Source: Halorubrum sp. CSM-61
GTDB taxonomy: Archaea; Halobacteriota; Halobacteria; Halobacteriales; Haloferacaceae
Reading direction: 5' to 3'
Length of the DNA: 64,000 nucleotides
NCBI RefSeq assembly: GCF_003781945.1
Contig: NZ_RJJW01000007.1
Coordinates: forward strand, 165,422 to 229,421
Numbering within the stretch: the stretch's first letter is position 1; the number at the start of each line of letters is the position of its first letter. The translations under genes were made by a program, and so were the position numbers. This document shows, in pieces, positions 10,913-52,420 of this stretch. A model generated the notes under the pieces. That model ran no database searches, was not told the DNA's origin, and saw only the letters and a list, made by a program, of their open reading frames with translations.

Positions 10913-13900
10913 ATGCCGACGCTCCCAGCCTTCACTCGAGCTTGGCTCTCGCCGGCCCCGCTCACCGATGACCATACCCAGTCGCCGCCCGATACAAGGA
11001 CAGATCGCACTTCGCATCCGTCGCGGTCGGTAGAGCCGACCCAGACGTCTCGGTCCCCTCGCTCAGGCCGTCCGAGGAACCGACGTCCCCTCTACGGTGT
11101 TCTGTTGACCCTCAGCGTCATCGGTATCCTACTCACGGCGGCCACTGGCCCAGCTATCGCAGCACACCCCGCTGACTCCACGAGTACCACAGAGAGCCAG
11201 AACCTCTCTTCTACTTCGCTGCAATCCACGAATGTAACCTCGCCGTGCCAAACTCAGAACAATAACTCGTACGGATGGACGGAACACTACGCGTGTATCC
11301 AAGTTCATCTCTACCAGCAGGATCAGGATCTCTCGATCTTCCCAGAAGACGCAACACAGGCCCGGGAAGCTGCGAAGAACGGAGAGTCGGCTGAAACCAT
11401 CGAGGATTGGCTCTTCCGATACTATCGTACGGAGCAATACCCCGACTGGTGGATGCCGTCAGAGGAACAGATTGAGCAAACCCCGAAGCTCAAGCTCTAT
11501 CCACTCACGAACGAAACAGTTCACGAGTACGAGACCGCTCAATCTCTCTCCGTCTTTCCGGAGGATGCTCGAGCCGTCCGGTTTGCGGCAACTCATAACG
11601 CGACGGTAAACGAACTCCGGATGGCCCTCCTCAACTACTACGCCGTTCAGTGGGATCAGGGCTGGCGGCCGAACTCAGAATCATCCACGACTACCACGAC
11701 CAACGCAACCGCAGGAGGGGGCTCAAACGGAGGGGAATCGGAGAGTACCGCCGAGTCGAGTTCAAGTAGCGCTTGGTATGCTCCGTATCTTAGTGGGATC
11801 GTCGACGCCGCAAATCAATTTCGTGGATGGATGAGTGGAGTGCAGGAGTTCATCGGTGGGCTCCTCATTTGGAGCTTCAAGAATCCCATTATCGCAGGGA
11901 TTGTCATCTTCACGTCTCTCGTCGTGTTCCTCCTTCTCGGAGTCGCCCGTCGGATGCGGCGGACGTGGACGGCGATGCTTGCGGTCTGGTCTCGATTCGT
12001 CCGCGCGATCGTCTGGGTGGCCGATACTATTGGCATCGGAACGCTCCGGCGAACACAAATCAAATTCTTCCGATTCCGTCGCACTCTCAACGTCTATGCT
12101 CACGCGCTCGCAGCGATAACAGGCTGGGCAATCCGCGAAGGGTTCCACCGTGTCGACCGTACGATCACAGACTACGTCACCGACGAAGACTCCAGCACGT
12201 GGTCGTATATCGCACCACCCGCTCACGCAAGCGCCAGTAGCACAGCTGATGCCGCCGTCTCGGAGACAGCGTACGCGAAGAGCAAGCGCCTCCTCGATCC
12301 TCTCGATGCACCAGCCGTGTACGAACTCGATGAGGATGAACCACCGCGACCAGGAGACGACCTCTGGTACCGCATTACGGCCTCCGATCAGCCGGCCTCA
12401 CCGGAGACAATCACCAAACAGATCGAAGGTCTACCCAATCTCACTGACGGGCTAGAAGTCATCATCCGATCGGCACCTCACGACCCCGAGATCGGAGGAG
12501 AAGAAAGCGAGCTTCAAACTACTGAAGGCGATGGCAACCGACTCGCAATCGAGGTTCTAATCCACTTCATCGAGGACGGCCAGACGAGCACGCTCGACCG
12601 GACGAAACACAACTGGGTACGACAAGCCTTCGGTGGTCCCGACTACGACGTCACACCCGTCTCGACGACGCTCCAGCGACTCCTCCGCGCCCGGCCGTAC
12701 CGGCGGTGCAAGCATCTTCTCGGGAATGATGCGACCCCATCAGCGACGTTCCCTTGGAGTAACGCGCAATCATCGGACGCCGCGACAGACGGTGGGCGGA
12801 CTCTCGACGAGGACACGCCCACACCGAGCGAACGTGCAGCTGCAGCCGAGGCGATTCCTCAACGGTACTTCCGAGAGCATCTTGAGGATCAGTTCACTGC
12901 GGTTTGCCCGGAAGCGCCCGTGAGCTATCCACTCGGTTCCCGAGGAACCCGCCGTTGGGACTTCCTCCAGCGACTCAACGTCTTCGACGAAACCGCTGCC
13001 GAAGAAGCCCCTCCGATGGAAGCCGCTCTCGATGCACTCCTCGAGACCGACGAACCTGCACTACTCCGTGCCCGGATTACATCCGCAGGCGACCTCAGCG
13101 ACATCATTCGGCAGAAACTCGACGTCATCGAGGGTGAGGAAAGCACCCAGTTCGACAAACGAACGAATCGCCGTGGGCGTAGCCGTGCGACACCAAGCTC
13201 GGGAGAGAATACCACCGAGGAAGACCGGGCTGCTGCTCGAGAACGAGAGAGTAGTCGGGTCCGTGGGGAAGTCGCGAGCGCGGAAGGGACACGGAACGAA
13301 GAACTCCAGAACAAGGGTGTGACTCGGAGTTTCAAAGTCACGATGGATGTCTTCACCCAACCCACACCCTTCTTGAACGACGCCCTCGAAGAGACTGCTG
13401 GAGGGTCAGTTGAACCCTCCTCAGAGGCCCACCCCGTCCCCTCCCCCCTCTTCCATTCAGACGAGGACTCCACCTCTGCCTCGACAAATACGGCGAGTGA
13501 CGGGGGCGTCTTCACCGAAGAACAGCCCGATCTCAACGAGATAGACAGTACTGCCGATCTATCTGGTTCCGACACCGACATCGAGACCTTAGCGAGTCGA
13601 GGTGACACTCTCCGAGTGACTCCCGAGACGCTCGCTAAAGCCGCAGCCAGCCAGCGGACTACGGCTCGCGACGACGCCTGGCGGCTCGCAAAAACGTGGG
13701 CGACTGCTGCTGACGGCGAGTTCAACAAGCTCACTGAACCACCAGAGAACAGCCGCCTCGCAAAGTGGGCACGGCAGTTTGGGTGGCGGAGACATACGCT
13801 CGGACAGCTCCGTGACTCGTACCGTTTTCACCGCGCTCAGGAGTATGCTGGTAGGGCACCCACATTCGGCCTACACTACTCTCTCCGTCGCCGCTGGCCG

Positions 13901-16900
13901 ATCGTCCTCGCCGCCGCCGACGAACTCCCTTCGTTCACAGCACTCCCGAGTACCAGCGCTGTCTCGGACGACCTCGCAGCCCATATGGAACGCCAACTCT
14001 CCCACACAGCCCCACTCTCTGAACTCTCTCCTGCCGAGGACAACGAAATCATCGGTACGGACATTGACGGGGCCACGCTCGGCTATGCGTTCGATCGTCT
14101 CCACGCTAGCGACCTCACTCGTCCCGTCAAACATCGCACGGACTATATGGACCGGTCGATCCTCCACCAAGGGCTCCCCGGCTCCGGGAAGTCTGTCGAC
14201 CAAGCTCACGAGATCGTCGAGCGTCGGAAGGCCACGAACGGCCCCATTATCATCTACGCCGGCCCCGGCGCAAACGTCGGTGAACTTGCTGTGCGCGGTC
14301 TCTTGGATGAATTCGGCGGAGACTGGGTGCGCGAGCACGTCCACTGGTTCGATATGCCTGAGGTCCTCCCCGGACTAACGGTCTTCGACACACGACCCGC
14401 CCAACAGGCTGACGACGCCCACGGCAACCCCCAGGCTGCAGAGAGCGTCGCGACCGACGACACCCCTCCCCAGCGCCCTGATATCGCTTCCAAGGACACC
14501 AGCTGGGAGACACACGGCTCACAGGTTATGCAGACTGTCCGGAAGATAGCCGAACTTCTGATGGGTGAGAGCGACTTCCAGAACGCCCGCGTGTCTCGTG
14601 ATGTCCTTCGGGCCCTCGGGACGGCTGGCTTTTCACCACACACATATCCGACAGGCGTCGATGGCACGCCTGCGTACAAGCGGAAAGGCGGTGATACCAG
14701 CAATAACACGCTCCCAACTGCCGACGACCTCGTGAGCGGCGGAAATCGCTCCAACGATGAAAACGAGGACGATTCAAGATCTCGACAGCCCACCGTGATG
14801 CCGTTCCGCTGGGGGTACGACGCCAGCCCGAACGTCTATCCCCTCTGGCAGCTCCAAGAGCAGACCCAGCAGGTCACCGAACTGACGAGGTTGATGGATC
14901 CGGATATTCCGATCAATCCTAAGGATTTACTGCCTGATCCGGGCTCGCACGCAGTCAAGCGGAATATGGAGACGCCGTTCAACAATCAACAGCACACCGC
15001 CCAGCAGATCCTCGGCGGTGTCACCAACCGTTTGAACGCGCTTACGACGGACGCCCGTCTCGCGCCCCTCTTCAATAACACGACCCGGCGGTTCTCCTTT
15101 GCCGACTTCCTTTCTGGCGATCGCCAGAACGACGTCCTCATTTTCGACGTTGAGGATCTCGATCCGGACGCCCAGCGTGACTTCGTCCTTACACACGAAC
15201 TCCTAATGCAGTACGAACTCGAACTCTACAAGTCCTTCCTCAAAGAGGAGGCAACTGCGGACGATTACTACGTCAGCGTCTTCATCGACGAGGCCGGCCG
15301 CCTCGTCGAGCCGGATGACCTTGCAAAGATGATCGCCGTCGCCCGCAACCACTCTGTCTCCCTCTCACTTGCCGTCCAGACGCCCGACCAGCTCTTCGAC
15401 GCCGACACCGACAACAGTGTTGGCGACGACCCGACGTACGCCGAGATCATCGGTAATATTCAGACGACCGTCGTGCGTGCCGGTGAAATCACGCGTCAGC
15501 AGGCAAAGGCGCTTTGTCCGGCCGACCTCGAGGTCGAGGACTTCATGGATCACGTCCGCGATCTCCCCGTCGACCACCGGCTCGTCCAGTATCCGACACC
15601 TTCCGAAGGAACACGGTCTCAGACCATCGAAATCGCCCGCATTCCCCTTCCGAACTGGCATCAGGATGCCGAGGAAGCCCCCGAAGGATACGATTCTCGC
15701 GAAGATTTCGAGGAGGCCTTCCGAGAGGTTCGCGCCGATGTCATCGACCAGACGAACGAAGAGTACGGAATCCCCGACGACGAGTCAGAATCGGCTGTCC
15801 GTAACCGGGCGATTCTCAACATCCCCGAACTCGCCCACCATCTCACAATAGACGACCCACTCCTCCCGGTTGTCCTCGCGTGGGCGACTTGGATAGTCGC
15901 TCGTGACCCACCCAACGGGCCCGGTGAAGAAACTCTGCACAGCGTCTCCAACACCGACAGCAAGCTCCCTGACCTCGAAGACCCAGTTGAACCAAATAAT
16001 GATTCGACGATAGAGGACTCCCCGGCTGAGGAAGTCAGCGCGATAGATGTCCTATCGGACGATGCAGGACCCGATGAATACACAGCTGAATCGGTATCTA
16101 CCAGTCGCGAGAACGATTCTCCATCCACTACGAGCGAGCAGCCAGATACGCTGTTCGACTCAGGTGGGTGGGCTCGCGACCAGTGGGATGAGGCGAAGAC
16201 CGAGCTCACCCAATCCAATACCGAGCGCCAGACTCCTCCCTCGGCCGCTGAGAGCTCAGGCCCTGCGTCCAGTCTTCATCACGTCCTGAAGGGCAGTATG
16301 ACGACTGACGAGTGGGAGGAGCTTACCGACCTCCTCGAGAAGGGGAAGTCGCTTTCCCCAGAAGAATGGGCGATTCACACCGACCTCCCGACGTACCGGA
16401 AAGATGAGGAATCCATCCAAGCCCGTGCGCTCAACAGCCGTGTCGCGACTCTCCTCAACCAAGGTATCCTCACCGAGGATGAAGTGGCCCGGATTCAGGA
16501 ACTCATCGATCTCGCACGGGATACCGGGAACTGGCCACCGACTGCGGTTCGTGATCGTCTCGACACGGAGTCCGAAACTGCGCCAGCAGACAAATCGTTT
16601 CCCGAACAGCAAAGCGCCACTGTGGATAACGAGAGTGTGTCCGCGGCGATCGAACGCCGCCGGACCAGTGAGAGAAATTCTGTTGGGATCGACCCGTTCG
16701 ATGGGGAGGAACCACGACCCGGAACGTACCGCTGGGTGCGCCTTGACGAGATGTACCGCCGGCTTCGCCTCGAAGTCGAGAAAGTCCTCGCCACAGAGGG
16801 CCTCAACGAGGGAGAACGTAATCGTCGCCGCGATGCCCTCCCCTCGCTCAAGGCGTGCGCCGATGAGATCGAGGCGTTAGGCACCATTATGACCCATCGG

Positions 16901-18949
16901 GGCGTCGCTGGCGACACTCCCATCCCGGAAACAGACGGTATCTTCGAGATTGAACTCGCGAAGCACCGTGACGACGTCCCCGGCGACGAGGGCTACGCCA
17001 TTCGGTTGACTCCCGAGGGTGCTCGTCTCCTTCTCGAAAACGTGTTTTCGACTGGCTGGGTCGCAACCGCTGGGACCGATACTCACGATACCGGCCTTCG
17101 AGACGCTATGACGGCACTCGAAGACGCAGTCCCCACCCGAGTCAGTGGCCGGATCATCGACCAAGACACCGGGGACATCCCGGACGCCGTCCTCACAGTC
17201 TTCGCCAGCGAGCCTACGGAGTGCTTCGCTGACGACATCATCTCATGCACAGTCGAAGAGGAGACCGACCCACGTCGACACCCCACGAAGAAACTCCGTA
17301 ACCTCAAGAAGGCGCTTAACACTACTACGAAGAGTGGCGAATGTCGCCTCCCCATCTTCGTCGCCGAAACGCCGTGGGACGAAGACGCAGGGGCCCCCGA
17401 CCTTGGACCTGCCACCGCATTATCGAACATCCTCCGTGATCCGATGAACACTCAGTGGTCGGGTCGCCGGTTCTACTCGCAATCGAACACGCCAATCGAA
17501 TTCGACGGCGGCGCCCGCGACGGCGGTGTCACCGCTGTCGTCCCCCGATCGGACACAGAGAGCGCCGGCACGTCGATCTGGATTCGCGACCCGGACCCCG
17601 ACTCGGACGACTGCCTCCTCGTCGCCCCGACCGCCGACAACATCGGCCATCCCGATGACGAGGATATACACCTTCGTATCGCTCCCGGTGACTTCCAGAA
17701 CCTCACTCCCTCGAGCATCCCGTACCGGGCGACATGTCCCCCGAGAAGTGCAAACGAATCAGCTCGCTATATCGTCGAGACTCCGGGTAGCGAACAGACG
17801 TACAAGTACGAGACGGAAGAGCGGTTCCGTGAGGATTGGGTCCGCGTCAACAAGCCATTCGTACCCGACATCGAATTCCGGCACCAGGACTACCCAGAAA
17901 CCGCATATGCCACCCTCGTCCGATACGAGCCGCCCCGCGCCGGCGACGACGCACAGGCACGTATCGCCTGGTTCGATCATCGGACCTCGGGCGACGAGGA
18001 GATGGGGACGCTTCGGCCCGTCGAGGACCTCATCGAAGCGATTCAGACGGGCGAACTCAAGCCGGCGTCCGCTGACCCCGGAACGGCACCCGAATGGACT
18101 CACGAAGACGAAGTCTCGACCGACGAAGCACAAGACTCTGAAGTGGATGAGGAAGACACTGGCGCGTCATCATCGACGGACGAGGCACCAGACGAATCCA
18201 CTCCCGAGCCATCCGACAACAAGGACGAAGAGCTTGACGGCGATGATACTGACACAACGCAGTCCGAGGAGGGAGAGACAGACGATACTTCCGAACCACT
18301 CCAGGATGAGGGGAAAGCAGCTACCGCCGCGTTCATCGCGGCTTACCTCCGTCCTGCACCGAACAACGTCGTGGACGTGGATATCGCCTTCGACCGTTGT
18401 CAGGAATTCGCGAGCACGCACAACCTCGTCTCACCAGAATCAGAGGACGAGTTCGCAGAAACGATCGATTCCCTCTTCGATGCGTTCGACACGGACACCG
18501 GAATCGACGGAGACCTCTTCGACATCGATCGCGACGTCATCAGTGCCCTCGAAGAGGGATTCAATATTGTCTCAACGTCAGGTGGAAACGAAGACAGCAC
18601 TCGAACCGTTATATTGGGTGTGAAGATGGTTGATCCCACAGAAGAAGACACGTCGTTCTTAACGGAAGCAGCGCCCGAGCAGTCGGCAGGTGGTGCGGCG
18701 TTCATTGCGAACCAGCTCACGTCCGACCCTGACGGAGCGCTTCCGAGTTCGGAAACCTATGACGAATACGTCGACACCGTCACCGACTGGGGATTCGAGT
18801 CTCTCCCTGACCGAGGTTCGAGTGTGACGTTCAAACGGTTCCTCCAAATCTGGGGTGCGGTGCTGTTCGGCGTCTCGGTCGAACGGAAACGCCGGCGGAT
18901 CGACGGGTCGCCTACGCGGTGCTATACGCACCTCGAGTGGCGCGAGTAG
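10913..18949 (+). CDS. Giant VirD4/TraG-like coupling ATPase fusion protein (2678 residues)
   Basis: Residues 58-90 form a signal/anchor (VLLTLSVIGILLTAATG). Two related extracellular repeats follow, at about 139-185 and 211-255 (LSIFPEDA...W-x-x-W-x-P and LSVFPEDA...GWRP). A Ser/Thr linker leads to a strong membrane span near 325-345. Walker A (GLPGSGKS) lies at about 1088 and Walker B (VSVFIDEAGRL) near 1455, followed by VARNHSVSLSLAVQTPDQ, the pattern of VirD4/TraD motors that feed DNA into the channel. The remaining 1100 residues carry acidic linkers and at least two unrecognised globular parts. Normal coupling proteins are 500-800 residues, so this is three to four times the usual size. 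It closes the transfer block; the next 3 kb is non-coding. Confidence 0.78.
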   Translation: MPTLPAFTRAWLSPAPLTDDHTQSPPDTRTDRTSHPSRSVEPTQTSRSPRSGRPRNRRPLYGVLLTLSVIGILLTAATGPAIAAHPADSTSTTESQNLSSTSLQSTNVTSPCQTQNNNSYGWTEHYACIQVHLYQQDQDLSIFPEDATQAREAAKNGESAETIEDWLFRYYRTEQYPDWWMPSEEQIEQTPKLKLYPLTNETVHEYETAQSLSVFPEDARAVRFAATHNATVNELRMALLNYYAVQWDQGWRPNSESSTTTTTNATAGGGSNGGESESTAESSSSSAWYAPYLSGIVDAANQFRGWMSGVQEFIGGLLIWSFKNPIIAGIVIFTSLVVFLLLGVARRMRRTWTAMLAVWSRFVRAIVWVADTIGIGTLRRTQIKFFRFRRTLNVYAHALAAITGWAIREGFHRVDRTITDYVTDEDSSTWSYIAPPAHASASSTADAAVSETAYAKSKRLLDPLDAPAVYELDEDEPPRPGDDLWYRITASDQPASPETITKQIEGLPNLTDGLEVIIRSAPHDPEIGGEESELQTTEGDGNRLAIEVLIHFIEDGQTSTLDRTKHNWVRQAFGGPDYDVTPVSTTLQRLLRARPYRRCKHLLGNDATPSATFPWSNAQSSDAATDGGRTLDEDTPTPSERAAAAEAIPQRYFREHLEDQFTAVCPEAPVSYPLGSRGTRRWDFLQRLNVFDETAAEEAPPMEAALDALLETDEPALLRARITSAGDLSDIIRQKLDVIEGEESTQFDKRTNRRGRSRATPSSGENTTEEDRAAARERESSRVRGEVASAEGTRNEELQNKGVTRSFKVTMDVFTQPTPFLNDALEETAGGSVEPSSEAHPVPSPLFHSDEDSTSASTNTASDGGVFTEEQPDLNEIDSTADLSGSDTDIETLASRGDTLRVTPETLAKAAASQRTTARDDAWRLAKTWATAADGEFNKLTEPPENSRLAKWARQFGWRRHTLGQLRDSYRFHRAQEYAGRAPTFGLHYSLRRRWPIVLAAADELPSFTALPSTSAVSDDLAAHMERQLSHTAPLSELSPAEDNEIIGTDIDGATLGYAFDRLHASDLTRPVKHRTDYMDRSILHQGLPGSGKSVDQAHEIVERRKATNGPIIIYAGPGANVGELAVRGLLDEFGGDWVREHVHWFDMPEVLPGLTVFDTRPAQQADDAHGNPQAAESVATDDTPPQRPDIASKDTSWETHGSQVMQTVRKIAELLMGESDFQNARVSRDVLRALGTAGFSPHTYPTGVDGTPAYKRKGGDTSNNTLPTADDLVSGGNRSNDENEDDSRSRQPTVMPFRWGYDASPNVYPLWQLQEQTQQVTELTRLMDPDIPINPKDLLPDPGSHAVKRNMETPFNNQQHTAQQILGGVTNRLNALTTDARLAPLFNNTTRRFSFADFLSGDRQNDVLIFDVEDLDPDAQRDFVLTHELLMQYELELYKSFLKEEATADDYYVSVFIDEAGRLVEPDDLAKMIAVARNHSVSLSLAVQTPDQLFDADTDNSVGDDPTYAEIIGNIQTTVVRAGEITRQQAKALCPADLEVEDFMDHVRDLPVDHRLVQYPTPSEGTRSQTIEIARIPLPNWHQDAEEAPEGYDSREDFEEAFREVRADVIDQTNEEYGIPDDESESAVRNRAILNIPELAHHLTIDDPLLPVVLAWATWIVARDPPNGPGEETLHSVSNTDSKLPDLEDPVEPNNDSTIEDSPAEEVSAIDVLSDDAGPDEYTAESVSTSRENDSPSTTSEQPDTLFDSGGWARDQWDEAKTELTQSNTERQTPPSAAESSGPASSLHHVLKGSMTTDEWEELTDLLEKGKSLSPEEWAIHTDLPTYRKDEESIQARALNSRVATLLNQGILTEDEVARIQELIDLARDTGNWPPTAVRDRLDTESETAPADKSFPEQQSATVDNESVSAAIERRRTSERNSVGIDPFDGEEPRPGTYRWVRLDEMYRRLRLEVEKVLATEGLNEGERNRRRDALPSLKACADEIEALGTIMTHRGVAGDTPIPETDGIFEIELAKHRDDVPGDEGYAIRLTPEGARLLLENVFSTGWVATAGTDTHDTGLRDAMTALEDAVPTRVSGRIIDQDTGDIPDAVLTVFASEPTECFADDIISCTVEEETDPRRHPTKKLRNLKKALNTTTKSGECRLPIFVAETPWDEDAGAPDLGPATALSNILRDPMNTQWSGRRFYSQSNTPIEFDGGARDGGVTAVVPRSDTESAGTSIWIRDPDPDSDDCLLVAPTADNIGHPDDEDIHLRIAPGDFQNLTPSSIPYRATCPPRSANESARYIVETPGSEQTYKYETEERFREDWVRVNKPFVPDIEFRHQDYPETAYATLVRYEPPRAGDDAQARIAWFDHRTSGDEEMGTLRPVEDLIEAIQTGELKPASADPGTAPEWTHEDEVSTDEAQDSEVDEEDTGASSSTDEAPDESTPEPSDNKDEELDGDDTDTTQSEEGETDDTSEPLQDEGKAATAAFIAAYLRPAPNNVVDVDIAFDRCQEFASTHNLVSPESEDEFAETIDSLFDAFDTDTGIDGDLFDIDRDVISALEEGFNIVSTSGGNEDSTRTVILGVKMVDPTEEDTSFLTEAAPEQSAGGAAFIANQLTSDPDGALPSSETYDEYVDTVTDWGFESLPDRGSSVTFKRFLQIWGAVLFGVSVERKRRRIDGSPTRCYTHLEWRE

Positions 18950-19120
18950 CCTCTTGATTTTCTCTCTCAGTCTACCGCCTCGATCTCCCGTCTAATACTA
19001 TGAAATCAAACTGATATTTCCGATAATTTCCCTTCTGACGGTGTCCCTTAATCCTCGATTTTCTAGAACTATTACTGAATAGCATATTTTGGATAAACCA
19101 CCGGACGGAACGGTAATACA

Positions 19121-19468
19121 ATACTGGAACGGTAAATCGGAACGCGAATCTCTGAGGACTCACAAAATCACCATATAGCGTCGGGATGGTAAACTGGAAC
19201 GTCAATCATTAGCATACACTCCCGAAAGGACCGGATCCTTTTGCAAACTGGAACACCGTGCAGTCTTGCGGTTTTCACCGGAAACCTGGACACATCTACG
19301 CACCACCACACACCAGCATCTCGATAAACTGGAACTCCGCGCAGTCTTGCGATTTCGGGCCTATAGTCAACTCCGTGCTCAGAACACCCTTCGAGCGACT
19401 CTCCGCACTCTCGAAACTGGAACGCTACGCAGTCTAGTGATTATCCCCGGCTATTGAGAAACTGGAAC
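19121..19468 (+). repeat. Iteron-like array, core AAACTGGAAC
   Basis: Six near-identical cores lie at 19121-19130 (one mismatch), 19191-19200, 19245-19254, 19326-19335, 19414-19423 and 19459-19468, all in the same orientation. The copies at 19245, 19326 and 19414 extend to about 30 bases, sharing GCAGTCT and a G/T-rich end. A weaker motif, GGAACGGTAA, occurs twice at 19107 and 19126. Spacing is 45-88 bases, irregular. Such arrays mark plasmid replication origins or regulator-binding regions. No initiator gene lies adjacent, so the role is open. Confidence 0.65.
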
Positions 19469-20239
19469 ACCCCCTTTCCCACTAGTATAGAGGGGGCAGA
19501 TTCGTGTGAAAGGGGGGTACCGATGTGTTCCGGCGAGCGGGTACCCTGGCAGCGGGTACAGGCTGGCCCCCTGGGCGGTCGTCGAAGACGAGTGTCTGAT
19601 GCGTATCAGATTGTGGAGAAGTCGGTAGCCGAAGCCGAGGTGAATAGCCGTTGTGTGTCGCGTGGAGAGCGCGGCCTGTCGTAACGTAGGAGCTGGTGGG
19701 TGGCGTCGAGGTGTAGCATCGAGCGCGCGTGGGGAACATACGGCTTTGCGTACGAGCGAGTGGGAGTGGATGGTCGTGTCGCGGTGGTGCCTACACTAGG
19801 GTCTGCTGGCTATCGCACGGGGACGTCAGGGTGCGTATCTCAAACAGGCTAGGGACGTGCTGCGTATCGCGGCTCTCGCCTCGTGGTTCGTTCTCAGCGT
19901 GAGGATTGGGCACGGTGACGTCGACTTCGCGAGGGGCTGTCGGCTGTACTCGAGGCGGGGGGTCGCGCCGTCGTGAGACGCCGTGGGCTGTCGATAGAGC
20001 ATAGTGGTGTGGCCTCGGCGGCCGAGTGGTCGCTGTCGCCACCGCGTTCCGGCGTGACGGCCGTCGGCTCGCTGCTCTGGCGCGTATGGATGCCCAATCG
20101 GTGTGTCTCGAGAAGGGTGCCGCGCGCGTCGGGGTCGCGCGCGCTTTGGATCGAGACCGCCGCGACGAGCAGAGCTCGTCGGACGGTCTCCGTGGGTGAA
20201 TTAGGACCGCGTCGTAGCGGCGGCTGATTTCCGGGACCT

Positions 20240-20337
20240 GCTCCACACGCTCTGGCCGCTGACGGCGGGCCACGATTTCGGGGAATCGCGTAGCTTTCCC
20301 CGAAATCGGCCGCCTCACCGGCCAGTCCGTGGGAGCC
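20240..20337 (+). repeat. RNA hairpin domain 1 (simplified apex)
   Basis: Nested helices: CTGGCCG 20252-20258 with CGGCCAG 20319-20325; then TGA/TCA; GGCGG/CCGCC; CC/GG after a single bulged G; and GATTTCGGGGAA 20274-20285 with TTCCCCGAAATC 20296-20307. An outer GCTC/CACG segment (20240-20250) can pair with 20328-20337. The lower and middle helices match the other domains, but the conserved internal loop is replaced by continuous pairing. Confidence 0.6.
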
Positions 20338-20374
20338 GATGTCGTCCACTCACCCGCCGAAGTCCGCGGATTGC

Positions 20375-20469
20375 GCGGTCACGAGACACCGACGCGAACC
20401 GGACCCTACCCGCGAGCGCAACCCGCTCGCGGGTCCCTTCCAGTCCGCGACGGCGCCTCGTAACACCGC
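20375..20469 (+). repeat. RNA hairpin domain 2
   Basis: GCGGT 20375-20379 pairs with ACCGC 20465-20469, ACGAG 20381-20385 with CTCGT 20457-20461, then CCG/CGG and CGGAC/GTCCG. The apex holds the shared module: CCTA, helix CCCGCGAGCG with its complement, then TCCCTTCCA. Confidence 0.6.
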
Positions 20470-20577
20470 TCATCGAGCGGATTCGGCGGCCTCGGGAGAC
20501 ATCGGGTCGTGCTACGACCAGGTTTCCTCACTCGGTCGCCCCCCTTGCGCTGGCGCGTGCAGTAGCGCGCGCCGCGC

Positions 20578-20691
20578 ACTCACCGGGAGGGGCCGCCGGA
20601 GCCACCAGCGATTTCCGCGGACCCTACCCGCCCCCACCGGGGCGGGTCCCTTCCACGGAAATCGGGCGCCTCTGTCGGCCTCCCGGCGAGT
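20578..20691 (+). repeat. RNA hairpin domain 3
   Basis: ACTC 20578-20581 pairs with GAGT 20688-20691, CCGGGAGG 20583-20590 with CCTCCCGG 20679-20686, and GATTTCCG (from 20610) with CGGAAATC (to 20664). The apex is GGACCCTA, helix CCCGCCCC/GGGGCGGG, then TCCCTTCC. Confidence 0.65.
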
Positions 20692-20760
20692 CGGGGCGAA
20701 GCCGGGCACGGGGCCTGCCGAGCCGAAGGCACGGGAGATCGCGTCGCTCACTCCGTTCGC

Positions 20761-20896
20761 CTGAGTCATACGTCGCCAGCACGCTGAACCGGACCGGGTC
20801 ACGATTTCGCGCGGATACCTTCCCGCGCTCGCAAGCTCGCGCGGGCCCCTTCCACACGAAATCGACCGGTTCAGCGCGCGGCGACGCACGACTCAG
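20761..20896 (+). repeat. RNA hairpin domain 4 (136 nt)
   Basis: Four successive helices: CTGAGTC 20761-20767 with GACTCAG 20890-20896; CGTCGCC 20771-20777 with GGCGACG 20880-20886; CGCTGAACCGG 20782-20792 with CCGGTTCAGCG 20866-20876; and GATTTCG with CGAAATC. The apex carries GGA-TACCTT, a CCCGCG helix and CCCCTTCC. This is the longest nested helix set in the region. Confidence 0.7.
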
Positions 20897-21045
20897 CCCG
20901 GCCATATGCGGCCGATTCATCTGCGTTCACCGACCCGCACCCGGACCTCGATTCCGGCAGACACTACCCGCCTTCGGCGGGTCCCTTCTCCCGGAATCGG
21001 CCGTGCGCGGCTGGTTCACGTTGTTCATCGGCCGCATCTGCCGGG
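20897..21045 (+). repeat. RNA hairpin domain 5
   Basis: It begins at the base after domain 4. CCCGGC 20897-20902 pairs with GCCGGG 21040-21045, ATGCGGCCGAT 20906-20916 with ATCGGCCGCAT 21027-21037, and GATTCCGG 20950-20957 with CCGGAATC 20991-20998. The apex is CAGACACTA, helix CCCGCC/GGCGGG, then TCCCTTCTC. Confidence 0.7.
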
Positions 21046-21054
21046 TTCGCGACT

Positions 21055-21129
21055 CCCGTACCTCGGCGGGCAGGGCCCCGCACCGGGCTTCGTTCTGGCG
21101 GTACGGGCCACCCGCCAGAAGCCGCCGAG
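21055..21129 (+). repeat. RNA hairpin with possible pseudoknot
   Basis: CTCGGCGG 21062-21069 pairs with CCGCCGAG 21122-21129. Inside, TTCTGGCGG 21093-21101 pairs with CCGCCAGAA 21112-21120. The loop of that inner hairpin contains GTACGGG (21101-21107), complementary to CCCGTAC at 21055-21061 just outside the helix, so a pseudoknot is possible. An A/T tract (21131-21142) follows, probably single-stranded. Confidence 0.5.
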
Positions 21130-21205
21130 CAAAAATTAATTTCTTTCCTCTTAAGCGTCCACGGGACGGGCGGGGGAAGCCGCCGTGCCGTTCCTGACCT
21201 GGCAC

Positions 21206-21265
21206 GATCTCAGCGGACCCTACCCGCGCTCACACGTTCGCGCGGGTCCCTTCCACTGACATCGG
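21206..21265 (+). repeat. RNA hairpin domain 6
   Basis: GATCTCAG pairs with CTGACATC; the C:C mismatch sits inside otherwise complementary arms that differ in sequence from the other domains, a paired change. The apex is CGGACCCTA, helix CCCGCG/CGCGGG, then TCCCTTCCA. It lies inside the 15-bp long-range helix 21144-21158/21463-21477. Confidence 0.6.
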
Positions 21266-21302
21266 CCAGCTCACGACGGCAGCCGGCTCCCCTGCCGGTA
21301 CC

Positions 21303-21342
21303 CGACGGCGCTCGCGCTATCACACACGCGCGAGCGCCGTCG
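21303..21342 (+). repeat. Perfect 15-bp RNA hairpin
   Basis: The arm at 21303-21317 and its exact complement at 21328-21342 enclose a 10-base A/C-rich loop. A smaller CCGGC/GCCGG hairpin at 21283-21298 precedes it. Both lie between domains 6 and 7. Confidence 0.6.
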
Positions 21343-21361
21343 TTCCGACAAGCTCGAGACC

Positions 21362-21439
21362 CTGACGCGGGCCGCGATTCCGCGGAGATACTTCCCGCGC
21401 TTCGCGCGGGCCCCTTCTCCACGGAATCGGCCGCCTCAG
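21362..21439 (+). repeat. RNA hairpin domain 7
   Basis: CTGA 21362-21365 pairs with TCAG 21436-21439, GCGG with CCGC after a mismatch, CC with GG after a bulged G, and GATTCCG with CGGAATC. GGAGA pairs with TCTCC around the internal loop TACTT/CCCCT. The upper helix is CCCGCGC/GCGCGGG with a TTC loop. Confidence 0.65.
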
Positions 21440-21547
21440 TACCTCTCGCCGTGTCGGAAGGAACGCTTAAGAGGAAACCATCCCCCCCACTTGTCGGATA
21501 TGAACTGCACGTCTTGGGGAGACCACTTGCCGGATGCCTCTGGCGCG

Positions 21548-21635
21548 TGCATTCCCCTGATCGCGGCCGCCTTCGGCAGACACTACCCGCCTTCGGCGGG
21601 TCCCTTCTCCCGAACGCGCCCGCGTCAGGGGTGCA
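21548..21635 (+). repeat. RNA hairpin domain 8
   Basis: TGCA 21548-21551 pairs with TGCA 21632-21635, CCCC with GGGG, TGA with TCA, CGCGG with CCGCG, CG with CG and TTCGG with CCGAA. The apex (CAGACACTA, CCCGCC helix, TCCCTTCTC) equals domain 5, while the lower helices differ completely. Confidence 0.65.
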
Positions 21636-21654
21636 CCCGCCGGACGCCTTCCAG

Positions 21655-21762
21655 CTTGTGGCGCTGGGCGCGGGCCTCGATTCCGGCAGACACTACCCGC
21701 GGCGCATCCGGTCGGTGCGCCGCGGGTCCCTTCTCCCGAAATCGGCCGCGCCAGCGTCCAAG
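21655..21762 (+). repeat. RNA hairpin domain 9
   Basis: CTTG pairs with CAAG at the base, CGCTGG 21662-21667 with CCAGCG 21751-21756, CGCGG with CCGCG after a bulged G, and GATT with AATC. The same CAGACACTA/TCCCTTCTC internal loop is capped by a longer helix (CCCGCGGCGCA and its complement). Confidence 0.65.
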
Positions 21763-21902
21763 ACGCACAGTCCCTTCCAACTGTTGAGGGGGATTGAAAT
21801 CATAGAGTCAGGTAGCCCGTGACAGGGCGTCGGGCCGTCGGCAGGCGGCGCCGGGCGGTCGGCGTGCGGAACGTCGGCCGCTCAGGCGCGCCCCGCGGTG
21901 GG

Positions 21903-21945
21903 TTTGTTCGCCCCTCCGCGCGGTGAAGGGTGTACGAATACACCC
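21903..21945 (+). promoter_or_regulatory. Shared leader motif (TTTGT, C-run, GGTGA) plus hairpin
   Basis: TTTGT at 21903, a C-rich run, then GGTGA at 21922-21926. This is the first copy of a motif found before about ten genes downstream. It is followed by the hairpin GGGTGTA-CGAA-TACACCC (21928-21945). It precedes the OB-fold gene at 22016. Confidence 0.5.
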
Positions 21946-22015
21946 GTCGGTCGGCGGTCAGAAGGCGGGCGCGGTGGAGCGCGCCCAACAGGGGATCACT
22001 CCCCGTGAAACAGCA

Positions 22016-23446
22016 ATGTCTAGTTTCAACTCAGGGCAAAAAAGCCCATCGGCGGTTGGACAGCCTGACAAGTACGACGAACTCGAGATGGATCTGCTCT
22101 ACAGCAGTCCCCATCTGGAGAACGGCGATAACGTGGTCGGTGTGGACATCGACAAACGCCCCCCGACCCCGAACGACGAACCGGTCGAGGACAGCCGGGG
22201 GCAGGAACTCGTTCCTGGAAACTATGCGCGAGAACGCTCGGCGCGGATGGACGCGCAGTACCGGGCGGCTGCCTCACAGCACGAAACGTCGGACGAGGAC
22301 GACCAAGAAGACGAGACGGGGCTCCCCCACAGGCGCGAGATGACCGGCCGCGCAGGTGGCACCTACGCGGATGTTCAGGCAGTGATGCACGGCCAGCAGT
22401 TGGGCGACGTCGTTGAGGGCGATGTCGGCGAGCTGGTGCGCGGCGTCTCCACTGGGGTCTACTGGGAGCAGGCACTCGCGGAAATGGACATCCCCGAGCC
22501 TCGACGCGACCTGCAAGCGCCGTTCGCGGAGGTGTCCCCGGAGCACTACACGCTAGCGACTGAAGAGCGAATGCGCGGCGAGTTCGAGGCCGATGAGCGG
22601 AACCGCGCGAAGGCGATCGCGGCAGAGGTGGCGGGCATCGACCGAGCGGCGCGGTCGCGAGACGATATGCGGACGCGGGTGCCGATTCGCCACTCCGTCT
22701 CAGAGAGCGACGACCCGTGGGAGGGCCCGCCGGCAGAGACGGTCGGCGTCAAGCGCGTTGATCCGGCAGACGACGAACCGGTCACGACGACGTCCGTGAG
22801 TGACGGCCCTGACCCGCGGGCGTCACTTGACCAGGAAACGCTCGCCCAGGTGAACAAGGGCGCGGCGCGGCTGGCCGAGCACTTCCAAGGCGAAGCAGCG
22901 ATGTCCAGAGCGACGTTCGGGAAGTGCATCGCCCGGCACATCCAGGACGGGTCGGACGTGATGAACGCGACGATCGCCGTCAAGGAGACACTCGAGCGGA
23001 TGTTCGAGATCAAGCAGCCCATCGGGTCGATCGATCCCTACGAGCAGTGGGAGACGACGGTCGAGGCGGAGGTGACCACGCTGTGGACGCCGAAGCATCG
23101 GTCGCAGTACCAGGTGGGACTGGTGCAAGACGAGGCCGGCGACACGGCGAAGTTCACGGTCTGGTTCGCGGCGGGTGACAAGCCGACGCTCGCGGTGGGC
23201 GACCGGATTCGGGCGGAGCGGGTGCGTGTCAACGCCTACAAGGGTGATGCGACCCTGGCAGTCGTCGGTGATACGGACCTCACCATCCTCGACCGGGGTG
23301 ACGGCCCGATGACGCGGCGGAAGCGGCAGTCGGATGATCCGACAATCGCTCCGTGGTCGGCCGATAGCGACCAGCACGCGTGGATCAACCACATCGATAT
23401 GGAGCGGGCGATCGAGGTCACGCTCGGACGGCGGGACGACGAGTAG
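22016..23446 (+). CDS. OB-fold (RPA-like) single-strand DNA-binding protein
   Basis: 476 residues from the ATG at 22016; the frame is open to 21923, but the preceding leader hairpins make the later start more likely. The N-terminal 290 residues are acidic and low in recognisable motifs. Residues 345-450 hold an OB-type domain: EQWETTVEAEVTTLWTP, then YQVGLVQDEAGDTAKFTVW, then AVGDRIRAERVRVNAYKG. This is the strand pattern of haloarchaeal RPA-like proteins that coat single-stranded DNA. It lies at the head of a + strand replication cluster and is directly preceded by the giant RNA region. Confidence 0.65.
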   Translation: MSSFNSGQKSPSAVGQPDKYDELEMDLLYSSPHLENGDNVVGVDIDKRPPTPNDEPVEDSRGQELVPGNYARERSARMDAQYRAAASQHETSDEDDQEDETGLPHRREMTGRAGGTYADVQAVMHGQQLGDVVEGDVGELVRGVSTGVYWEQALAEMDIPEPRRDLQAPFAEVSPEHYTLATEERMRGEFEADERNRAKAIAAEVAGIDRAARSRDDMRTRVPIRHSVSESDDPWEGPPAETVGVKRVDPADDEPVTTTSVSDGPDPRASLDQETLAQVNKGAARLAEHFQGEAAMSRATFGKCIARHIQDGSDVMNATIAVKETLERMFEIKQPIGSIDPYEQWETTVEAEVTTLWTPKHRSQYQVGLVQDEAGDTAKFTVWFAAGDKPTLAVGDRIRAERVRVNAYKGDATLAVVGDTDLTILDRGDGPMTRRKRQSDDPTIAPWSADSDQHAWINHIDMERAIEVTLGRRDDE

Positions 23447-51610: not shown

Positions 51611-52420
51611 ATGATCGACTTCGAGTCCGCAATCCAGTCAACACTCATCCAGCTCAACGACGAGCATAGCCACACCGAGCTCGACCCCTACACTTTCCAC
51701 CCGAGTCAGCTCGCGAAGTGCCCCCGCCAATGCTACAACTCAAAACTCGGTCTTCTCGACCATACCGACGCGCTTGGCACCTTCCACACGGGAACCACCA
51801 TCCACGAGTTTATGGAAAACGAGGTCATCCCAGACCTCGACGTCGAAACCCAGCGCGAAGTCGCAATCGAGATAGAGGTGGACGGGCTTACGATCATCGG
51901 CCATGCCGACCTGTACGAGCCCGGCACCAACACTGTCTACGACTACAAGTCGCGAGCCAACTGGTATCGGTTCAATCCACCCATCGAGCGCCATCTAGAT
52001 CAGATCAATCTCTATATGAAGGCGCTTGGTGCGTCTCAGGGCCAGATCGTGTACCTCGCGAAGTCCGATCTCGAAGTTCGGACGTGGCCACCGGAGAGCG
52101 CCGGCATTGATGCCTTCGGTCCCGATCCGGGGCGCGTCCAGGACCTTCTCGAGAAAGGCAAGCACATCGCAGCCACAATTATCGACGAAGGCTACCCGAC
52201 GAGCAAAGAAAATATTCCCTTCAAGACGTGCGACTGCTGGCTCTGCGAGAAGGAATCCCTTCGCTTCGATCATCTCCAAATGGATGCTGATTCGACCGAC
52301 GCGTGCAACGCACTCGGAGTAGAAGGCGACGATACAACGGACTTTGAATCGGCTGAGGAAGACAACAGCGGGGACGCCACAAGTAGTAGTGGAGTCTCCC
52401 AATCTCCTGCTGACGTCTGA
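51611..52420 (+). CDS. Cas4/RecB-like PD-(D/E)XK nuclease
   Basis: 269 residues. The catalytic motif GHADLYEP...VYDYKS (about residues 98-116) gives the D...(D/E)-x-K core. The N-terminal PSQLAKCPRQCYNSKLG and C-terminal CDCWLCEKE clusters provide four cysteines for an iron-sulphur or zinc site as in Cas4 and AddB. The tail is disordered. Standalone Cas4 homologues are exonucleases common on archaeal viruses and plasmids. No CRISPR array or other cas gene lies nearby, so a role in repair or replication of this element is more likely. Confidence 0.75.
   Translation: MIDFESAIQSTLIQLNDEHSHTELDPYTFHPSQLAKCPRQCYNSKLGLLDHTDALGTFHTGTTIHEFMENEVIPDLDVETQREVAIEIEVDGLTIIGHADLYEPGTNTVYDYKSRANWYRFNPPIERHLDQINLYMKALGASQGQIVYLAKSDLEVRTWPPESAGIDAFGPDPGRVQDLLEKGKHIAATIIDEGYPTSKENIPFKTCDCWLCEKESLRFDHLQMDADSTDACNALGVEGDDTTDFESAEEDNSGDATSSSGVSQSPADV

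Follow-up and report, generated by a model that had tools for sequence, protein, structure and literature searches.

The 64-kb stretch of DNA from Halorubrum sp. CSM-61 analysed here (contig NZ_RJJW01000007.1; referred to as the window, with all coordinates given as positions within it) contains a conserved, highly structured region at 20220-21815, which we read, with somewhat more confidence than doubt, as a gene for a giant noncoding RNA encoded on the minus strand and predicted to be the scaffold of a plasmid ribonucleoprotein that includes an OB-fold protein. Transcription of the region, the choice of minus as the RNA strand and an action of this RNA in trans are inferred. The initial annotation had proposed a giant structured RNA of 2.3 kb (19480-21790) on an archaeal mobile element: a giant RNA is still the best reading, but its extent is ~1.6 kb. 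The repeated hairpin module and the linked OB-fold gene, both described below, were missed by that annotation.

In order to assess the folding of the region, 20170-21830 was compared on both strands with six dinucleotide shuffles each: the minimum free energies of -998.7 (plus) and -1135.9 (minus) stand against -756 and -821 for the shuffles, giving z of -24 and -38, with two coding controls lying between -3.8 and +0.2 (six shuffles each). A scan of the complete 64 kb in 400-nt segments (ten shuffles per segment) returned z of -5.4 to -13.8 for segments starting at 20201-21401, while the 309 segments starting outside 20001-21901 never went under -6.2 (plus) or -4.2 (minus) and only two segments outside 20001-22000 went under -4.5. 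Shuffled sequence thus does not fold as well on either strand, and the density of long, nested complementary segments originally noted as exceeding chance is borne out for ~20220-21815. The same does not apply to 19480-20169, the first 0.7 kb of the originally claimed element, which folds like shuffled sequence (z -0.3 and +2.0) and does not align to distant relatives, with the part from 19837 onward being retained in Natribaculum; since the first 0.7 kb folds like shuffles and the strong signal lies within 20001-22000, we set the element at ~1.6 kb rather than 2.3 kb. The core measures ~1.6 kb in the window and 1.8-1.9 kb in two relatives. Isolated strong folding of the plus strand was also seen at 51801-52200 (z -6.2) and at 14801-15200 (z -5.7), the latter within a gene for a protein of 2678 amino acids.

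A protein gene in the core was rejected on the pattern of substitutions. Between the window and Natribaculum breve 104 of 1593 core positions differ, and each of the five indels is a single nucleotide; in two of the longer frames on plus, the three codon positions carry 5/4/9 and 8/10/9 substitutions. The OB-fold gene next door differs at 183 of 1422 positions, with two 3-nt indels and 31/36/116 substitutions per codon position. These 1-nt indels and flat codon positions, set against the third-position bias of the neighbour, agree with the initial view that the stretch holds no believable protein gene, and the region is noncoding, as is required of a giant structured noncoding RNA.

Full-length homologues of the element are present in five haloarchaeal lineages, ranging from 99.8% down to ~60% identity: copies of 97.7-99.8% identity occur in Halobellus rufus, Halobellus clavatus, Halorarius halobius, Natronomonas marina and Halosimplex salinum, copies of 91-92% in Natribaculum breve and longum, and copies of 72-76% over aligned pieces in Halosimplex pelagicum, Halohasta litorea and Halorubrum laminariae. 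The fifth lineage (genome G225) was found with a covariance model of the hairpin module and its RNA is colinear along the whole length. In the core alignment, identities to the window computed without gaps are 93.5% for Natribaculum breve, 70.6% for H. pelagicum, 69.0% for Halohasta and 59.7% for G225. The element occurs on plasmids and, in H. pelagicum, on a chromosome, and the annotated records of matched plasmids list nothing over it. When species genomes were scanned for exact matches to the hairpin pattern, at least four matches were found in eight of the 52 stretches with any match, and all eight are haloarchaeal; under stricter filters the module is present in nine of 391 genomes of the class, six of 170 of the window's own family and seven of 146 of the family of G194, these draws overlapping one another. 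Over 18901-22100 the window is 97.7-99.8% identical to four loci (L018, L022, L054 and L067) whose hosts belong to different families, and such near-identity points to recent plasmid transfer.

Secondary structure is conserved and covarying in this element, with both local and long-range helices, so that homologues exhibiting covariation do exist. With one representative per lineage and columns gapped in more than three of the five rows removed, RNAalifold predicted double-changed pairs numbering 217 on plus and 238 on minus; ten column-shuffled controls, which were folded as plus strand only, had 77-106. The energies were -1257 (plus) and -1381 (minus) against approximately -685 for the shuffled alignments. 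Amongst the 527 pairs common to both strands, 199 are double-changed, where sliding the partners leaves 36-46 and row shuffling a mean of 86 (maximum 103). The effect is maintained at distance: 40 of the 99 pairs lying more than 250 nt apart are double-changed, against 6-14 after sliding and a mean of 16.7 (maximum 24) after row shuffling. Several domains can be delimited on this basis (Table 1). Four helices close the largest of them, namely 20531-20538/21123-21129 (2/7 pairs covary), 20697-20706/21083-21092 (4/9), 20709-20719/21069-21080 (4/10) and 20722-20728/21061-21067 (2/6). Covariation-supported structure of this kind, long-range helices included, is expected of a giant structured noncoding RNA.

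Table 1. Features of the predicted RNA and its surroundings (positions within the window; RNA features in 5' to 3' order of the minus strand where applicable).
Feature	Position	Strand	Basis
Core of the predicted giant RNA	20220..21815	-	five-lineage alignment, covariation, folding z, strand evidence
5'-terminal domain, closing helices within 21480-21517 / 21758-21794	21480..21794	-	covariation alignment
Domain closed by 17-bp long-range helix 21144-21160 / 21461-21477	21144..21477	-	8/17 pairs covary
Domain closed by long-range helices	20531..21129	-	covariation in four helices
3'-side domain, closed by 20336-20346/20495-20505 and 20354-20361/20482-20489	20336..20505	-	covariation alignment
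Long hairpin	20241..20335	-	18/37 pairs covary across two stretches
3'-terminal 7-mer that could close the RNA by pairing with its complement 21796-21802, close to the 5' end	20225..20231	-	by eye
Hairpin module 1 (RNA order)	21678..21744	-	
Hairpin module 2	21568..21618	-	
Hairpin module 3	21377..21427	-	
Hairpin module 4	21205..21264	-	
Hairpin module 5	20949..20999	-	
Hairpin module 6	20805..20862	-	
Hairpin module 7	20609..20664	-	
Hairpin module 8	20391..20451	-	
Weak TATA-like AACAAA, possible promoter	21903..21908	-	by eye
OB-fold (SSB/RPA/SOSS-B-like) gene, head-to-head with the RNA	22019..23446	+	start codon inferred

Eight copies of a hairpin module are distributed along the RNA, and their architecture is shared: the outer stem is followed by a mismatch and a 3-bp stem, then by an internal loop of 4 by 4 nt, and a GC stem capped by a variable loop completes the hairpin. 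The 3-bp stem reads RGA/TCY on the plus strand in most copies, and in most copies the internal loop on the minus strand is AGGG opposite AGGG or AGUG. Across 29 copies, 39 cells are double-changed versus 13.2 when shuffled and 7-12 with partners slid; the stems drift between copies whilst the internal loop is kept, in a set of copies that had been picked by loop words. This alignment (A1), its copies selected by a short list of such words and its borders set by folding, took 29 of the 33 listed copies (excluded were L069:2697-2747, L026:3544-3594, L026:4046-4098 and L081:5626-5703), one base being trimmed from four L020 copies. Modules number one to eight per locus. A covariance model (R1) seeded exclusively with copies from the window, Natribaculum, H. 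pelagicum, Halohasta and Salinibaculum found new matches in G225, G194, G315, G068 and G316, none of which is in the seed; as G194 and G315 are close relatives, these five loci represent four lineages.

No strand had been assigned to the element initially; the evidence now favours minus, which we consider most likely to be the RNA strand from the following comparisons. For pairs present in the folds of both strands, the single exchanges separating the window from Natribaculum comprise 21 that produce G:U on minus, 6 that produce G:U on plus and 7 others, and addition of a third sequence raises these to 48 (minus) versus 10 (plus), shared changes being counted repeatedly. Invariant unpaired columns of the five-lineage alignment, module loops included, read on minus as 59 G, 34 A, 10 C and 7 U, and three of the four sequences folded give the stronger z on minus. 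The G:U exchanges and the purine-rich unpaired positions make plus the less likely RNA strand. A number of observations nevertheless weigh on the other side: the five-lineage G:U excess is moderate (89 cells on minus, 56 on plus), two further sequence pairs yielded no informative G:U exchange, and in DNA, likewise, a G:T mismatch is the milder one. The minimum free energy is lower on minus in four of four sequences, yet so is that of the minus shuffles, the stronger z on minus does not extend to all four, and several 400-nt segments show stronger z on plus. UUCG-type loops are found on both strands, being commoner on plus among the loops inspected, and the minus promoter is weak in the window.

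On the minus strand, the predicted RNA would begin near 21815 (or up to ~21880) and end near 20220. As judged by eye, its terminal words, UGAUUUC around 21802 and GAAAUCA around 20225, could form a helix with each other. Two relatives, H. pelagicum and Halohasta, carry the TATA-like words GTAAAAAC and GATAAAAAC on the minus strand at the site of AACAAA in the window; alternatively, AACAAA may belong to the OB-fold gene.

In all five lineages the start of a homologous OB-fold gene faces the RNA at its predicted 5' end; in the window this start is ~200 nt from the RNA (an annotated relative starts ~70 nt later). This gene accompanies the RNA in 12 of 12 known full-length copies, the Halobellus rufus locus ending inside it, and at all five R1-found loci the match lies upstream of an OB-fold gene in the same orientation as the match, within ~0.1-1.2 kb. 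Counted by lineages found through the RNA, eight of nine have the gene (the five with giant RNAs, G194/G315, G068 and G316), although the protein of G068 and G316 is a remote relative with 26-38% identity in the best stretches and that of G194 and G315 ends shortly after the OB domain. Other plasmid genes were rejected as partners, as none recurs in all compared lineages; the compared pieces were 15-49 kb and unevenly cut, with the G225 and G315 contigs ending nearby and G068 and G316 left aside.

Several findings speak against a strict pairing of gene and RNA. The Salinibaculum plasmid, part of the R1 seed and with two module matches, exhibits no OB-fold gene within 12 kb. The gene is also a poor predictor of the RNA: only one of 21 loci picked by the gene (20 plus L211) has a module match, this being Halorientalis marina, which was fetched via the gene, stands outside the linkage count and has a pair of matches that are weak (E 0.0025 and 0.0083); on pNG500 no match was found. 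A second Halohasta copy of the gene, that of G145 and a G225 paralogue are likewise without such an RNA, and OB-domain relatives at E <= 0.001, most of them remote, occur in 377 of the 391 class genomes. A gene that is so often found on its own implies a protein independent of the RNA; the RNA may still depend on the protein. For some loci without module matches, single 300-nt segments upstream of the gene reach z < -5 (for instance in G331, the second copy of G194, and G402; eight shuffles).

On Haloarcula and Halorientalis plasmids (L078, L196, L211), pNG500 (L078:5374-6617) and Halorientalis display noncoding stretches of ~1.2-1.3 kb upstream of the OB-fold gene. By eye, Halorientalis contains repeated GGCGGUCGAU...AUCGUGACCCGCC-like modules, and pNG500 and G389 carry the TATA-like words TATATAAAACC and CATATAAAAGCC on the strand opposite the gene; these stretches are possible smaller relatives of the RNA. 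On the plasmid of Salinibaculum sp. KK48, L081:4740-9260 is GC-rich and hairpin-rich over several kilobases and annotated genes are scarce in it; of the two module matches one lies here and the other at L081:2179-2250, and an OB-fold gene is absent. This stretch is perhaps another kind of large RNA.

For the OB-fold proteins Pfam returned only matches below threshold, to DUF7513 for the window protein and to OB-fold families for the proteins of H. pelagicum, G225 and pNG500, with none for three others. A profile built from 17 relatives matches, at E 9e-12, the protein of entries 2kbn and 2ken, which is the MM0293 OB domain, and more weakly an archaeal-type single-strand-binding protein (SSB; E 0.017). 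The AlphaFold model has a mean pLDDT of 60 and is usable over approximately residues 261-430, comprising a helical part and the OB fold, the nearest folds to which are MM0293, POT1, Teb1, SSB and HIN domains; a conserved Arg/Glu-rich helix at ~179-214, of modest confidence, precedes the OB part. Two points count against a role in an RNA particle here: the N-terminal half of the model is of low confidence, and the solved relatives of the OB domain bind single-stranded DNA, for which reason RNA binding by this protein is a guess.

At the gathering cut-off, none of the families in Rfam 15 matches anywhere in the window, and a known RNA family is therefore rejected. Allowing E up to 1 within 19000-22200 added only short pieces of 6C (E 0.061, 33.8 bits, cut-off 47) and VA RNA (E 0.31, 25.5 bits, cut-off 62), and neither tRNA nor tmRNA was found in the window. 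The full Rfam 15 library, which presumably includes GOLLD and ROOL, gave no match indicative of homology to either, and the open-access literature searched describes no giant haloarchaeal plasmid RNA. A phage origin was rejected as well: a set of 50,697 phage records gave no match, the four IMG/VR contigs in which the pattern matches once contain no module match at E up to 0.01, and the string TTGGGGAGACCACTTG is absent from all viral contigs searched. No relative of the OB-fold gene was confirmed in viral contigs.

In character, the element resembles GOLLD and ROOL, which are very large, ornate, conserved, carried by mobile elements and without assigned function (PMC12286853). Of the three ornate classes treated in that paper GOLLD is the largest, many of its members exceeding 800 nt (PMC12286853). 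The core described here is, at ~1.6 kb, about twice the size of GOLLD as given there (slightly over 800 nt), and would be longer than any ornate RNA of a mobile element in the literature searched. Further differences from these RNAs of bacterial phages and prophages are its location on archaeal plasmids, the eightfold module, the linked protein gene and the lack of a tRNA in the window. With OLE RNA it would share the nature of a large structured RNA working as a ribonucleoprotein; OLE RNA is ~600 nt and bacterial (Gram-positive extremophiles), and it has no sequence match here. To our knowledge, the partners of OLE RNA are not SSB-like OB-fold proteins. We regard the element as working like the ornate RNA classes to which GOLLD belongs, but not as a member of those families.

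Our proposal for the function of the element is as follows. Divergent promoters within the intervening 0.2 kb would give rise to the RNA and to the OB-fold mRNA, and the RNA would fold into several domains on which the repeated 4-by-4 internal loops could serve as equivalent docking sites for several copies of the OB-fold protein, or for each other; a docking role is suggested because the internal loop of the module is kept whilst its stems drift, albeit in copies chosen by loop words, and the CCC of the 3' loop (plus strand) itself belonged to the selection criteria, which tells against giving this conservation full weight. The particle may then serve plasmid replication, maintenance or transfer by holding this single-strand-binding protein.

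Different explanations have to be weighed against this proposal. The repeated loops could instead drive self-assembly of the RNA alone into a cage or fibre like those of ROOL and GOLLD, the OB-fold gene being a mere neighbour or encoding a DNA binder. Eight equal modules would suit such an assembly, the OB-fold gene often occurs without the module, and the style of the RNA is that of ROOL and GOLLD, which form RNA-only cages (PMC12286853). Linkage to a protein gene in eight of nine lineages found through the RNA would be unexpected in this case; for ROOL, no protein partners are reported to be known (PMC12286853). We hold an RNA-only particle to be unlikely. A serious rival, even if we rate it as unlikely as well, is a single-stranded DNA element in the manner of Frpo: the minus strand would enter the recipient first in conjugation, fold, and drive or guard early expression of the SSB-like gene. 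Both place and strand fit, with the structure located directly upstream of the SSB-like OB-fold gene (~200 nt, a position that agrees with Frpo and ssi) and on the gene's template strand; a TraG-like protein is encoded upstream (match below cut-off), and the G:U bias could equally be a G:T bias. In bacteria SSB stimulates Frpo, which can lie directly in front of SSB genes (PMC11541004). The regions in the Frpo BLAST set given there span 50-350 bp (PMC11541004), however, and Frpo and ssi are short, bacterial and equipped with -10 and -35 boxes, compared with 1.6 kb, nested long-range covarying helices and conserved purine-rich junctions here. No AT-rich stem was seen by eye within 200 nt of the OB-fold start, and the H. 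pelagicum homologue is chromosomal. An RNA is favoured over a Frpo-like DNA element because of size, long-range covariation and this chromosomal copy.

Regulation in cis appears improbable, that is, a long leader, antisense or copy-control RNA acting only on the OB-fold and replication operon. The element is divergent from this operon and adjacent to it; as read, it does not overlap the OB-fold gene, its module number varies from one to eight, and the cis-regulatory RNAs that we know of are far smaller. Least credible, and in our view highly improbable, is an array of DNA palindromes or REP-like repeats lacking any RNA function. Many near-perfect hairpins in GC-rich DNA are what such an array would produce, but it does not account for covariation between bases over 250 nt from each other, nor for the colinear arrangement across lineages, the conserved single-stranded blocks or the strand bias. 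REP-like repeats, moreover, are dispersed and limited to local inverted repeats, whereas among the matches listed the modules occupy a single site in each genome: together with the covarying long-range helices, this largely refutes a palindrome array.

A dispersed repeat occurs close to the element in two relatives. A hairpin of 130 nt, GAAAGCCCC...CTTTCAGTCCCACC, on the 3' side of the RNA in H. pelagicum and Halohasta was rejected as an RNA domain, since it is repeated at dispersed intergenic sites: exact copies of its 16-nt core number 30 in G064, seven in G059 and none in the genome of the window, and five of 20 genomes have the repeat. The ~130-nt repeat starts with GTGGGACTGAAAGGGG on one strand (L026:2104-2250, L078:6001-6126, L080:5001-5138) and lies near OB-fold genes on some Haloarcula plasmids.

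With regard to its setting, the element had been placed between a transfer and a replication module, after an iteron-like array. In outline this stands: at lower coordinates lies the gene for a protein of 2678 amino acids (10913-18949; an unusual length for a coupling protein), which has a TraG/TraD C-terminal match slightly under the Pfam cut-off, and on the other side the OB-fold-type gene is followed by PCNA. Tandem Repeats Finder detected no tandem array at ~19120-19470. Degenerate AAACTGGAAC / GCAGTCTTGCG repeats of irregular spacing, iteron-like in appearance, are present at ~19120-19470 between the TraG-like gene and the RNA, and this stretch is unaligned in more distant relatives.

Returning to the giant minus-strand RNA, a more far-reaching proposal, which we put forward only tentatively and with more reserve than confidence, is that it represents a new class of archaeal giant RNAs forming a dedicated plasmid ribonucleoprotein, with an SSB/RPA-like OB-fold protein docked on as many as eight identical modules, and that smaller relatives with one or two modules make up a wider superfamily on haloarchaeal plasmids. 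Neither the Rfam scans of the window nor the open-access literature searched contain a giant ornate archaeal RNA, and the present data hint that haloarchaeal plasmids carry a superfamily of them. The combination of a linked protein and a repeated module would provide a testable handle on the old question of what the giant RNAs of mobile elements do, for which cultivated hosts exist in Halobellus, Halorubrum, Halosimplex and Natronomonas.

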